Below are positions 1 to 5,378 of a stretch of DNA of 6,191 nucleotides, one piece after another. The stretch spans positions 1 to 6,191 of the forward strand of contig DAOVMD010000198.1 of assembly GCA_030630935.1 (NCBI GenBank), in the 5' to 3' direction. The DNA is from Candidatus Mcinerneyibacteriota bacterium (GTDB lineage: Bacteria; AUK180; JAQVHJ01). How positions within the stretch are numbered: the stretch's first letter is position 1; each line of letters begins with the position of its first letter. Both the position numbers and the translations under genes were made by a program. The notes beneath the pieces are model-generated. The model did not search any database. It had not been told where the DNA came from and saw only the letters and a list, made by a program, of their open reading frames with translations.

Positions 1-2249
1 GGAATATACTTCTCATCAAGATGAATTCTTAGAAATGATTCATAATATTCTGAGTATTTACTCCATTTATATTCTCTTTTTTCTGAAACAAATATAACCG
101 GCATTTGAATGTGAAATTCCAATTCATTACCTTCATCATCAAATGGTCCAATAAAATTATAACGATCAACCAAATCTAAAGCCATCATATCTAATATTTC
201 ACTACTGGAACTTTTAATTATTTTCTTTTTATATTTAATAGCATATTTATAATCATCTGGTTTGTGTAGGAATTGAATAACTATTTCTATTTTATCTTTT
301 CCTTTTGGAATCAATTCTTCCGGAACTGTTTTTTCTATAATTCCATCAAATTCCGGGACAGGTGGTATTATTTTAAAACTCTTTAAATCTTTCTCTACAA
401 TTTTTGTTAAATAATAACAATCCATATCAAAAGCTTTCAATTTTATTTCTATTAGATTCTGATCTATCTTATAGTATTTAAACTTTTCTTGAACCAATAT
501 TCTTAAATCATTACAACGCTCATTATCAATATAATTTTTATCAGATTTTCTTTTACTTGTTTTGAACTTATTAATTTGAATCTTTAAATCTTGTGTGTTT
601 TTAGATATGTTTTTATTTATTTTATCTTTCAATTCTTCACTAAATTCATTTTTGTTCATTCGATAAATTAATATATCCGAAATTATATCATTTGATAGCT
701 TATATAATTTTTTTTCACTTAGAATCAGATCTTTATTTTTATCCTCCAGTAAAAAATATCTCTTAGAGAATTCTTTAAATTGGTTATCAATAAAAACCGA
801 ATACTTTTCATATTCCTCCATTTCTTTAGAATACTTCTTTATTTTTTCTTCAAGTTCATTAATAATTTCATTAAATCTAAAAGGATCAGATTTCCGTTGA
901 TTATAAATGTCTTCTCTTAATGGAACAATTCTTCTGTATATATCTTTGAATTCTTTGTTCTTTTTGGAATCTTCTTGATGTTGAAAAAAGAATCTTTTTT
1001 TCGAAAATATTTTATCAACTCTTTTTCTTACAGCAAGATATGTTTGAATTTTATTATCAAATTGTTTTAAATCTTCTTTTTTTTCTTTAATTCGTTTTTT
1101 TAAACTCTTTATTTTAAAGAAATATGCAGGTTTCCTATTATGATAGCGGATTATATATACTTCTTTTAATTCTATTTCAAAATAGGAATGAATTACCCTA
1201 TCTCTTGAGTACTTATGTATAATTATCATGTAATCTTTCCTTAAAATTAGGAGTTGATCTTCAATCCTATTATGTCGAATATGTTGAATGATAAAGAAGA
1301 ATATAAAGGATAGAATTAATAATATTATATACAAATTATTCTTTTTTAATATTAATCTTCTCTCCTTCTTGATAATTAGTTTTTTCTTCGTTTTCTTCAC
1401 ATATTGAAAAACCGTATATATTATCATCAATATCCATAAAGTTATAAAAACTCTAATGCTTGTGAAGAATAAAAGAGATTCTACTTTATAATAGTGATAA
1501 CTAAAACTACCAATGATAACGGTTAAATAATACAAGAAAAATACGAAGATTCCTGAAGAAAGAAAAAAAGTAAATAGTAAAACCGTTTTTTTATTTTTCA
1601 AAATCTCTCTCTTAATATATAAAATAATTTCAACTAAAATCAGTAAAAACGTAATTAGAAAAAACCATTTTATTTTTTCTAATAAAAAAAGAGGAGATCG
1701 GTCTCTTATCAAGTGATGAAGTATAGGGTAAAAAAGAAATGTAAAAATTAATAATGTAATGATTAATATATTTATTACTAACATTAAGGAAAAAAAATTA
1801 TCATTTTTTTTTGTTATTTTATACTGAATGAAATGATATAAAGTAAAGGCTAAATAAATCACAAAAATCAAAGTAATAATATTTAAAAAATGATAATAAA
1901 AATCAAAATAAAAAGTAAACCTCCAATGAAATAACCAGAAAACAAGAAATAATAAGAAAAATATTGAGTTTATGATTATATAAGAATTGACTATCACTTT
2001 AAACATAATTTTTTCAATTTTAATTTGTGTTAAAATATGTCTAACAATAATAAATAATATTATTGTAATTATCAAAAAAAATTGAATTGATCCTGTTAGG
2101 GGAAGTTTTAAAAAGAATGAAAAACTTTTTGCAAGGTAAGATAATCCCTGAATTTCAAAACAAGTCAATGCTATTAACATCCAATATAGTAAAAAAGTTA
2201 AGATAAAAAGTAGAAAATTCCCAACTTTTTTCAAAGCATTAATAAACAT
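1..2249 (-). CDS. Large nine-TM membrane protein with a periplasmic coiled-coil region and TonB C-terminal-like domain (3' end outside window)
   Basis: An ATG at 2249-2247 opens a frame that stays open to the window edge (749 codons plus 2 nt); AGGA at 2257-2260 is a modest ribosome site 7 nt upstream. I see nine hydrophobic segments, near residues 9-31, 55-73, 86-108, 120-141, 153-175, 194-212, 223-246, 259-281 and 305-321. Lys/Arg-rich loops (74-85, 142-152, 212-222, 282-304) alternate with poorly charged ones, which predicts N-in, C-out. Residues 322-628 are Lys/Glu-rich, with likely coiled coil near 380-412 and 459-485. Residues 629-721 resemble the TonB C-terminal fold: a PPVPEFDG start, beta-like IEIVIQF, KSSSSEILDMMALDLV in place of the usual SSG...LD.AAL, then NF.GP...G and a final MPVIFV. 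TonB-like domains normally contact outer-membrane or periplasmic partners. No HEXXH is present, so it is not a standard BlaR1/M56 peptidase. The role is unknown. The open frame is certain; the domain call is inference by eye. Confidence 0.85.
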   Translation of the reverse strand, partial: MFINALKKVGNFLLFILTFLLYWMLIALTCFEIQGLSYLAKSFSFFLKLPLTGSIQFFLIITIILFIIVRHILTQIKIEKIMFKVIVNSYIIINSIFFLLFLVFWLFHWRFTFYFDFYYHFLNIITLIFVIYLAFTLYHFIQYKITKKNDNFFSLMLVINILIITLLIFTFLFYPILHHLIRDRSPLFLLEKIKWFFLITFLLILVEIILYIKREILKNKKTVLLFTFFLSSGIFVFFLYYLTVIIGSFSYHYYKVESLLFFTSIRVFITLWILMIIYTVFQYVKKTKKKLIIKKERRLILKKNNLYIILLILSFIFFFIIQHIRHNRIEDQLLILRKDYMIIIHKYSRDRVIHSYFEIELKEVYIIRYHNRKPAYFFKIKSLKKRIKEKKEDLKQFDNKIQTYLAVRKRVDKIFSKKRFFFQHQEDSKKNKEFKDIYRRIVPLREDIYNQRKSDPFRFNEIINELEEKIKKYSKEMEEYEKYSVFIDNQFKEFSKRYFLLEDKNKDLILSEKKLYKLSNDIISDILIYRMNKNEFSEELKDKINKNISKNTQDLKIQINKFKTSKRKSDKNYIDNERCNDLRILVQEKFKYYKIDQNLIEIKLKAFDMDCYYLTKIVEKDLKSFKIIPPVPEFDGIIEKTVPEELIPKGKDKIEIVIQFLHKPDDYKYAIKYKKKIIKSSSSEILDMMALDLVDRYNFIGPFDDEGNELEFHIQMPVIFVSEKREYKWSKYSEYYESFLRIHLDEKYI

Positions 2250-2286
2250 AGCTCAATCCTACTAACTTGCTTTTAAGAAAAACATT

Positions 2287-2350
2287 AGATTGCCGCAGTC
2301 GTCGCAATACTCCTCCTGGACGCTTCGCTAGATCTTCGATGCGCAATGAG
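2287..2350. repeat. Degenerate palindromic dispersed-repeat-like segment
   Basis: This stretch is visibly richer in G and C than the flanking genes. It begins AGATTGC and ends GCGCAATGAG, with an internal inverted pair ATTGC (2289-2293) and GCAAT (2304-2308), and motifs such as GACGCTTCGCTAG between. This layout resembles the dispersed palindromic repeats of the type CATTGCGAGG...AAGCAATCT found between genes in many bacterial genomes. It lies in the gap between transketolase and the large membrane protein gene. I see no convincing promoter for the membrane protein here. Membership of a repeat family is inferred from a single copy. Confidence 0.4.
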
Positions 2351-2388
2351 AAAATGGAGTTGTCGGACAGTCTTCGCGTTGTACAGGG

Positions 2389-2440
2389 TCTGCTCTCTGT
2401 TCTCAGATCTCTGTTATCTGTGAGGTTAACAGAGTTAACC
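2389..2440 (-). repeat. GGTTAAC-palindrome repeat, copy 1, overlapping the transketolase stop codon
   Basis: Read on the minus strand, it starts with GGTTAACTCTGTTAACC (2440-2424), a 7-bp stem with a TCT loop. A purine-rich tail follows with recurring words ACAGAGA, CTGAGAACAG and GAGCAGA. The same 17-nt palindrome and the word CTGAGAACAG recur in the opposite orientation at 5731-5800. The last sense codon and stop of transketolase (GGT TAA) are the first six bases of the element. No T-run follows the hairpin, so it is not a classical intrinsic terminator. Confidence 0.65.
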
Positions 2441-4402
2441 GAATTGCTGTTTTACTTTCCTTACTATATTTTCTACTGTGAATCCGAATTCCTTAAATAC
2501 TTTTGAGCCTGGAGCTGATTCCCCGAATCTTTCAATACCGATAACAATGCCATTTAGCCCGGTAAATTTTTCCCAGCCGATTGTCTGACCTGCTTCAACT
2601 GCAACTCGTTTTGTAACGGTCTTTGGTAAAACCTTCTCTTTATAATCATCTGATTGTTCATCAAAGAGTCTCCAGCATGGGATTGAAACAACTCTGACTT
2701 TCATGCCATCAGCTGCTAATTTTTCTTTTGCTTCGATTAAAAGATGTACTTCAGAACCTGCTCCGATTAAAATCACTTCAGGCGTTCCATCGCAATCAGA
2801 GAGGATGTACCCGCCTTTTGCGACTCCCTCTTTCACCGGATATTTTTCCAGGTTCATTGTAGGTAATGCCTGTCTTGTCAGGATCAATGCGGATGGTCCT
2901 TGATATCTTAAAGCAATTTTCCAGGCTTCGACTGTTTCATTTGCATCTGCCGGACGTAATACATAGAGGTTCGGGATTAGCCTTAATGACATAACATGTT
3001 CAATAGGTTGATGAGTTGGTCCGTCTTCCCCAACCCCTATACTATCATGAGTAAATATAAAAATTGAACGTGTCTTCATAAGTGCCGCTAACCTGATTGA
3101 ATGTCTCATATAATCTGAAAAGACCAGGAATGTTGCACCAAAAGGAATAATCCCATTATGTAAAGCCATCCCGTTTACAATCGCTCCCATTGCATGTTCT
3201 CTAATACCAAATCTAATATTTCTTTCAGGGAATTTACTGAAATCAGTTTTATTAGATGGTGCAAGGTCAGCTGACCCACCAATTAATTGAGGGATATGTT
3301 CTGCAAGAATGTTCAGGATTTTCCCTGATACAGACCGGGAAGCGACACCTTTATTTTCCATTTTAAATTCAGGAAGGATTGCATCCAAATCAATTGAGCA
3401 TTCGTTTTTAATCTGTTGATTAAATAACTCAGCATCGTCTTTGAATTTAGTTTTGTACTCATCAAATTTCAAATTCCAGTCATCTTCATACTTCTTCCCA
3501 TTTACCTTAAAGTTCTCAGTGAAATCCTTCAGTTCATCAGGAACATAGAATGTCGTGTCTACTGGCCATTTAAAGAATTCCTTTGTCTTTTTCATATCAT
3601 CAGGACCGAGAGGTGAACCGTGGGCTTTTTCTGAATCCTGTTTTGGACTACCATATCCAATATGCGTTCGAATTTTTATAATTGATGGTCTTCCATGATC
3701 GCCCTGAGCAATCTTAATTGCAGTTGAAAGCTCATCAATATCATTACCATCATCGACTTCAAGTGTATGCCATCTGTAAGAAGAAAATCTCTTCAAGACA
3801 TCTTCAGTGAATGTAATTTTTGTCTTACCTTCAATTGAAATTTTATTATCATCATATAGGTAAATAAGTTTCCCGAGTTTCAAATGCCCTGCCAAGGACG
3901 CGGCTTCTGAAGTTATTCCTTCCATTAAATCACCATCAGAAATCAAGGCATAAGTAAAATGGTTAATTATCTCATTACTACCTTTATTAAACTGTTTAGC
4001 GAGATACTTTTCGGCAAGAGCCATACCAACTCCCATTGCGAAACCTTGACCTAATGGACCGGTGGTTGCTTCAACACCTGGTGTAAAGGAATGTTCAGGG
4101 TGACCCGGTGTTTTACTTCCCCATTGCCTGAATTGTTTTAACTCTTCCATTGGAAGGTCATAACCGAATAAATATAATGCTGCATATAATAATGCCGAAC
4201 CATGACCTGCAGATAATATAAATCTATCACGGTTAAACCAATCAGGATTCATTGGATTAAACCTCATGAATTTTGACCATAAAGTATAAAGGATTGGTGC
4301 CGCACCTAATGGTAAACCCGGATGACCGGAGTTCGCAGCATCGACCATATCTATTGACAACATTCTAAGTGTATTGATCGTTAACTTATCTTTCTTTTCC
4401 AA
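2435..4402 (-). CDS. tkt: Transketolase (full length, TTG start)
   Basis: Transketolase moves a two-carbon ketol unit between sugar phosphates in the non-oxidative pentose phosphate pathway, using thiamine diphosphate and a divalent metal in the cytoplasm. At 655 residues it has the usual length and all three domains. The N-terminal domain has SGHPG with His27, SAGHG with His67, His101, TGPLGQG (114-120), the cofactor/metal motif SDGDLMEG (155-162) with DDN (184-186), and His260. The middle domain has Arg355, GGSADLAPS (374-382), the catalytic Glu401 within IREHAMG, and His451, Asp459 and His463 in HDSIGVGEDGPTHQP. The C-terminal domain ends with the typical FGESAPG...FGFT. The start codon is TTG at 4402-4400, chosen because of the strong AGGAGG upstream and the family-like N-terminus; the next Met is residue 14. 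It lies 35 nt after the peroxiredoxin stop and probably shares its transcript. The last codon and stop fall inside a repeat. Confidence 0.97.
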   Translation of the reverse strand: MEKKDKLTINTLRMLSIDMVDAANSGHPGLPLGAAPILYTLWSKFMRFNPMNPDWFNRDRFILSAGHGSALLYAALYLFGYDLPMEELKQFRQWGSKTPGHPEHSFTPGVEATTGPLGQGFAMGVGMALAEKYLAKQFNKGSNEIINHFTYALISDGDLMEGITSEAASLAGHLKLGKLIYLYDDNKISIEGKTKITFTEDVLKRFSSYRWHTLEVDDGNDIDELSTAIKIAQGDHGRPSIIKIRTHIGYGSPKQDSEKAHGSPLGPDDMKKTKEFFKWPVDTTFYVPDELKDFTENFKVNGKKYEDDWNLKFDEYKTKFKDDAELFNQQIKNECSIDLDAILPEFKMENKGVASRSVSGKILNILAEHIPQLIGGSADLAPSNKTDFSKFPERNIRFGIREHAMGAIVNGMALHNGIIPFGATFLVFSDYMRHSIRLAALMKTRSIFIFTHDSIGVGEDGPTHQPIEHVMSLRLIPNLYVLRPADANETVEAWKIALRYQGPSALILTRQALPTMNLEKYPVKEGVAKGGYILSDCDGTPEVILIGAGSEVHLLIEAKEKLAADGMKVRVVSIPCWRLFDEQSDDYKEKVLPKTVTKRVAVEAGQTIGWEKFTGLNGIVIGIERFGESAPGSKVFKEFGFTVENIVRKVKQQFG

Positions 4403-4437: not shown

Positions 4438-4908
4438 CTACTTCTTCTTTATTGCATCTAAAACCTCATTGATATCGGGAAGCGCTTTGATCGGGTAAAG
4501 TTTTGCCCAAACAATCTTACCATTCTCGTCAATCAGAATATTTGCTCTACCGGAAAATCCAAGTCTATCAATAAAGTTTTCATATTTCTTAGAGATTTCA
4601 CCATGGGGCCAAAAATCAGAGATTAATTTTAAATTCTTTAGTCCCATTTCATCTGACCAAGCTTTCTTTGATGGTGTTGAATCCACACTAACTCCTAACG
4701 GTATCGTAGCATTATCTTCAAATACCTTATAATTATTTTCAATGGAAAGCATCTGCTCTCTGCAGACCGATGTCCAAGCTAATGGATGAAAAGATAATAA
4801 AACCTTTTTCCCTTTAAAATTACTCAAAGATATTTCTTGATCAAATTGGTCCTTTAGTCTGAAATTCGGTGCATCTTCTCCAATTTTAATTAATCTCAAC
4901 TCAACCAT
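4438..4908 (-). CDS. One-cysteine peroxiredoxin (AhpE/Bcp-like, redoxin fold)
   Basis: Peroxiredoxins reduce hydrogen peroxide and organic hydroperoxides through a reactive cysteine in the cytoplasm. This 156-residue protein has the compact length of the AhpE/Bcp-like group. It opens with the usual IGEDAPNFRLKDQFDQEISL. The active-site motif PxxxTxxC is present as PLAWTSVC, with Pro42, Thr46 and the peroxidatic Cys49; Arg121 in GRANILID is the likely active-site arginine. Cys49 is the only cysteine, so there is no resolving cysteine within the chain and recycling must use an outside thiol or a partner protein. The ATG at 4908 is preceded by AGGAGG (4915-4920) with 6-nt spacing. It heads a probable two-gene operon with transketolase, driven by the promoter at 5041-5069. 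The exact subgroup (AhpE or Bcp/PrxQ) is uncertain. Confidence 0.93.
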   Translation of the reverse strand: MVELRLIKIGEDAPNFRLKDQFDQEISLSNFKGKKVLLSFHPLAWTSVCREQMLSIENNYKVFEDNATIPLGVSVDSTPSKKAWSDEMGLKNLKLISDFWPHGEISKKYENFIDRLGFSGRANILIDENGKIVWAKLYPIKALPDINEVLDAIKKK

Positions 4909-5096: not shown

Positions 5097-5378
5097 TTAT
5101 TTATAATACTTTTCCGCATCATCTAAGAACTTTGTCCAATCATCTGTCTGATAAAGCTTTGTGATACCCTCTCCATATTTTTTCATTACTTCTGCATTGT
5201 TAAGATCATATTTTTCAATGGCTGCGTATTTCTGATCATCAGTACCATAGTTTGTTGTTGCATAAAGTTCTAGTAAGTGCTCTCTATTGTCAGGATCAAA
5301 CTTAACCTTACCGCCACCACAACTGGCTAAACTAATTATAAATAATACTAGTAACAAACCAACAATGACCTTTTTCAT
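5097..5378 (-). CDS. Small lipoprotein of unknown function
   Basis: The 93-residue product begins with two lysines, a hydrophobic stretch (residues 4-16) and the lipobox LASC with Cys20. This is a clear signal-peptidase-II signal, giving a lipid-anchored mature protein of about 74 residues starting CGGG. The residue after Cys is Gly, not the Asp that marks inner-membrane retention in enterobacteria; that rule may not hold here. The mature part is charged and probably helical (NREHLLELYATTNYG, DDQKYAAIEKYD, a Tyr/Lys-rich end). I recognise no family. The ATG at 5378 is preceded by a G-rich site (AGGGGG, 5393-5388) at about 9 nt, and a promoter lies at 5417-5445. It appears to be a single-gene unit upstream of the peroxiredoxin operon. 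Confidence 0.88.
   Translation of the reverse strand: MKKVIVGLLLVLFIISLASCGGGKVKFDPDNREHLLELYATTNYGTDDQKYAAIEKYDLNNAEVMKKYGEGITKLYQTDDWTKFLDDAEKYYK

Follow-up and report, generated by a model that had tools for sequence, protein, structure and literature searches.

The stretch of DNA analyzed here (the window, contig C444, 6,191 bp) is a contig in full, from a genome of 3.16 Mb in 471 contigs that is 80% complete. It raises the question of what a protein might do that joins nine predicted membrane segments to a long charged arm and a domain of the TonB_C type, a domain whose presence is usually taken to mean energy coupling to receptors. The initial annotation had proposed a new kind of envelope-spanning sensor or energy coupler. 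The features on which our reading is based are collected in Table 1.

Table 1. Features of the nine-TM gene and its surroundings, in window coordinates
Feature	Position	Strand	Basis or remark
Open frame, 749 aa, GC 22%, 3' end missing at contig edge	3..2249	-	ATG at 2249
AGGA, possible ribosome-binding site	2257..2260	-	7 nt before ATG; read from sequence
Polytopic part, residues 12-324, nine hydrophobic helices	1278..2216	-	N-in/C-out predicted by positive-inside
Predicted periplasmic arm, residues 325-628, Lys/Glu-rich, 3 Pro in 304	366..1277	-	Largely helical by prediction
Region found by query-blind profile of paralogue C termini (profile positions 8-136 of 139)	90..464	-	E 2.8e-6
TonB_C core, residues 676-720 (SSSSEILDMMA ... 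MPVIF)	90..224	-	Pfam, pairwise, and PDB-profile comparisons
Extension past TonB_C, residues 721-749 onward beyond contig end	3..89	-	
Transketolase, upstream, same orientation	2435-4402	-	
AhpC/TSA peroxiredoxin, upstream, same orientation	4438-4908	-	
Small lipoprotein-like frame, upstream, same orientation	5097-5378	-	

The frame extends over at least 749 codons and meets no stop up to the contig end. At the base composition of the gene, one would expect 10% of codons to be stops, and a run of this length would arise by chance with a probability of ~1e-34; the chance-frame reading was dropped, and the single unbroken frame described initially stands. Recovery of the rest of the gene failed, as the first bases of the contig matched no other contig.

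The transketolase and the peroxiredoxin beside the gene have no envelope role, and in the sister genus transketolase is followed by what reads as mfd, with no counterpart of the nine-TM protein at that place. The GC content of the gene (0.222) is the lowest among 47 sampled frames of the genome (mean, 0.340; standard deviation, 0.038), a sign of foreign origin or rapid change that may account for the difficulty of finding homologues. Base composition, the lack of a homologue beyond the genome, and the absence after transketolase in the sister genus would all suit an A+T-rich gene that evolves fast or was acquired recently, with little function and a worn TonB_C end. We regard this as very improbable, given 749 stop-free codons at such a stop frequency, the ordered charges of the loops, and the conservation of motif positions in the TonB_C-type domain.

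Hydropathy places nine hydrophobic segments in the N-terminal part (residues 12-30, 51-69, 85-103, 123-141, 155-173, 193-211, 228-246, 259-277, and 306-324), and the helices of a full-chain AlphaFold2 model, which is of low confidence, coincide with all nine, in agreement with the earlier count. The odd loops, taken as inside, contain 25 Lys and Arg residues, and the even ones, taken as outside, contain 7 (binomial p = 0.005). On the strength of this bias, the N terminus is predicted to lie inside and the 425-residue tail outside, a topology that rests on hydropathy and charge; the cytoplasmic-tail reading was rejected, and the periplasmic C terminus predicted in the initial annotation is retained. 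The longest inner loop has 28 residues, leaving no cytoplasmic output domain. Two charges, E207 and R266, are buried within the membrane part, His residues occur only near the helix ends, and an SHL[ST] motif is absent. Residues 1 to 330 returned no match in Pfam, NCBIfam, or PDB.

Taken alone, the nine-TM protein scores below the curated cutoffs for TonB_C, with 19.4 bits against Pfam PF03544 (cutoff, 24.6) and 18.9 bits against TIGR01352 (cutoff, 27.1); the curated TonB_C match to the last 150 residues has an E value of 0.0015. A six-frame search of the genome was made with a profile built only from the C termini of three other proteins (C124a, C124b, and C446), the nine-TM protein being left out. 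This blind profile picked out the C-terminal region (Table 1), which ranked among the TonB_C proteins of the genome, and the true stretch scored 28.5 bits, compared to 13.4 bits for the best of 5,000 shuffles. BLASTP with the C-terminal part gave E values of 9e-7 against C124b and 7e-6 against C446, and the top PDB sequences were solved TonB structures (E, 0.002), both for the paralogue-only profile and for a profile with the nine-TM protein added. Because the blind profile, the shuffles, and the pairwise and PDB matches agree despite the weak single-sequence score, we accept the homology, and sequence comparison supports residues 676 to 720 well as a TonB_C homologue. The resemblance proposed at the outset is thus real at these residues, and the profile match that it predicted was obtained. 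Structure prediction of the tail, also suggested there, was of little use: AlphaFold2 without an alignment gave a pLDDT of 43.7 for the full chain and 29.9 for residues 584 to 749, so that the models were of too low a quality to be compared with known folds, and it was the profile comparison that returned TonB structures.

The genome holds a dozen other TonB_C proteins, and the closest sequences to the C-terminal part are C124a, C124b, and C446, each with one TM segment, a long Pro-poor arm (that of C446 likewise), and a C-terminal TonB_C over the Pfam cutoff. The plan of the nine-TM protein, described initially as without a standard counterpart, still has no whole-length homologue in the sequences searched, but it is less isolated than it had seemed, since these three proteins are one-TM relatives of its arm-plus-domain half. 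The distance from the last TM segment to the LDxxA motif is comparable, at 380 residues in the nine-TM protein versus 348 to 355 in the paralogues. The paralogues have one TM segment rather than nine, and their chains stop right after TonB_C, unlike that of the nine-TM protein. Nor are the arm sequences detectably alike: the comparison of the arm with the paralogue arms ranked 206 among 2,000 shuffles, and 2,241 of 3,000 shuffles were as good as the match of the last-TM region. As arm and last TM segment are no closer than shuffled sequences, common descent of the whole arm with those of the paralogues is not established. The Lys/Glu-rich stretch of about 300 residues is present as first described; the description as partly coiled coil is reasonable without being proved, as one 28-residue window has a heptad pattern equaled by 2 of 100 shuffles. 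As a reading rather than a result, the nine-TM protein looks like the paralogue plan with a polytopic anchor, eight helices having been added.

The neighbors of these paralogues read as envelope genes, not receptor genes. C124a and C124b are encoded by tandem one-TM/arm/TonB_C genes (L056, 3008-5784) directly after genes that read as mlaE, mlaF, and mlaD, and the gene for C446 comes after murJ; both sets of neighbors were annotated by eye and not with profiles. The C124a/C124b pair may provide lipid transport with a periplasmic link. C446 also gave a weak match to tolA_full (E, 0.002).

TonB_C was seen in other settings as well. A MalG-like ABC sugar permease at L055 (2289-3488, plus strand) carries it as an insert, after its first membrane segment and before the permease core, in a frame with both Pfam BPD_transp_1 and TonB_C over the cutoff. 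The same insertion occurs at L060 (TonB_C at 3701-3943, plus strand), and these cases come from two genera of the family. A single protein at L050 (2514-4118, minus strand) combines, in this order, a thioredoxin-like/AhpC domain, a Pro-rich arm, and TonB_C. One-TM/arm/TonB_C proteins lie near a canonical tonB at L059 (4259-4396, minus strand; exbB is also close by) and at L051 (1165-1302, plus strand), again in two genera, and comparable proteins occur across the class.

Does the TonB_C domain mark the nine-TM protein as an energy transducer? In such a scheme the polytopic part, or a bound ExbB/ExbD, would use the proton gradient and pull an outer-membrane receptor via TonB_C. The genome has the necessary parts, encoding two ExbB, four ExbD, canonical TonBs, and nine plug-domain receptors over the cutoff, and the buried E207 and R266 could serve a proton path, although buried charges are common among transporters. 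One canonical TonB is encoded on contig C230, where an ExbB, three ExbD, and a plug-domain receptor are encoded as well. The nine-TM gene, in contrast, lies outside any Ton operon, isolated behind transketolase, with ExbB and ExbD encoded elsewhere in the genome and not on its contig. The likeness to TonB (PF03544, TIGR01352) consists of the homologous C-terminal domain, predicted to be periplasmic, and the long arm that leads to it from the membrane. TonB has one TM segment, an SHLS His, and a Pro-rich arm, and the canonical TonBs of this genome have a membrane His (e.g., in AFILHLVFG) and arms with 16 to 18% Pro; the nine-TM protein has nine segments, no such His in its hydrophobic cores, and 1% Pro, and its residues continue beyond the domain. 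A D-box strand just after the TM segment of TonB binds ExbD (PMC10907165); as far as the accessible text of that literature goes, the D-box is defined by binding and strand propensity, with no fixed consensus. Since the SHLS-type intramembrane His and the Pro-rich arm are both absent, energy coupling is not supported by the sequence; the "energy coupler" of the initial annotation is not upheld, and we judge a true energy transducer to be improbable.

TolA combines a TonB-like domain at its C terminus with a long helical arm in the periplasm, and the nine-TM protein has both features in common with it by prediction. TolA, however, has one TM segment and works with TolQR, and the nine-TM protein has no such link.

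The M56/BlaR1-TonB fusions are a second known arrangement in which several TM segments are followed by a periplasmic TonB_C. They have about four TM segments and an HEXXH motif, whereas the nine-TM protein has nine segments, an arm of about 300 residues, no HEXXH (as initially reported), and no match to an M56 profile. We surveyed TonB_C frames in 126 genomes and inspected 20 long frames outside the home class, among the best matches listed; all four of the four-TM frames among them carry HEXXH, and within this sample no standard protein has the nine-TM plan, which bears out the earlier remark. A sensor, in which the membrane part or the arm would detect the envelope state through TonB_C contact and signal inward, as supposed for M56/BlaR1-TonB, has a precedent in these HEXXH proteins of surveyed genomes. 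It finds little in the present sequence to work with (no HEXXH, no output domain, no adjoining regulator), and we think it a poor candidate, about as doubtful as the transducer.

Wider searches returned no whole-protein homologue in the contigs of 85,000 species, either with the protein or with the paralogue alignment as the query, nor in viral contigs or 60 relatives. Two matches were discounted: that in G004 (E, 0.001) covers only a short membrane stretch, and that in G025 involves a stretch that also resembles Mfd. An alignment including the nine-TM protein had no stretch conserved enough for scanning, the defense and phage libraries gave nothing useful for it, and the literature search found no paper describing the nine-TM/arm/TonB_C layout.

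The adjacency of paralogues to mla and murJ, together with the presence of TonB_C inside an ABC permease, suggests a role for TonB_C as a docking module in this lineage. In this genome the domain occurs on proteins encoded next to lipid-transport genes, within an ABC permease, on a thioredoxin-like protein, and on the nine-helix protein, a spread suggesting that it can act as a general module for docking across the periplasm. In that case the automatic label "energy transducer TonB" would be misleading for such proteins, and it would become testable whether polytopic inner-membrane proteins are tethered to the outer membrane.

From sequence features we infer docking, tethering, and a lack of energy coupling. 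The polytopic nine-helix part would anchor the protein in the inner membrane, the helical arm of ~300 residues would reach out through the periplasm, and the TonB_C-type domain would dock on a periplasmic or outer-membrane partner, probably by strand addition, like TonB with TonB boxes. The protein would then be a passive tether or adaptor, not a motor subunit, and would represent a lineage-specific form of the one-TM/arm/TonB_C plan in which extra helices replace the single anchor. Probably it belongs, as a private variant, to a small family of tethers that span the envelope of the host bacterium. We give an even chance to a non-motor tether that joins an inner-membrane unit to such a partner. 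Against it stand the below-cutoff TonB_C score of the protein alone, an arm and a last TM segment no nearer to those of the paralogues than shuffled sequences, the lack of a known homologue or partner gene, neighboring genes without a part in the envelope, and a domain that is not at the chain end as it is in the paralogues.

Nine helices exceed the need of an anchor, and they could instead form a transporter, flippase, or glycan enzyme that the arm and TonB_C merely position at an outer-membrane partner. That relatives of the arm-plus-domain half adjoin Mla lipid-transport and MurJ flippase genes, and that an ABC sugar permease of the same genome contains a TonB_C insert, would fit such a role; the blank profile searches over residues 1 to 330 and the poor structure model count against it. 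A polytopic transporter or enzyme of unknown family, with a built-in arm and TonB_C joining an inner-membrane reaction to an outer-membrane partner without ExbBD, is in our estimate unlikely, if less so than a transducer or a sensor. If true, it would be one of several uses of the TonB_C docking module in the lineage.

Just upstream of the nine-TM gene lies an intergenic repeat (window 2266-2376) with about 40 partial copies in the genome, on either strand. One copy adjoins a 668-residue frame (L093, 254-2257, plus strand; 30% GC) with six TM segments and a long tail, which has no family match and no similarity to the nine-TM protein. Near the best copy is a very A+T-rich frame (L067, 4347-5291, minus strand; 25% GC), the end of which, where Pfam reports no TonB_C, has by eye the look of a worn one.
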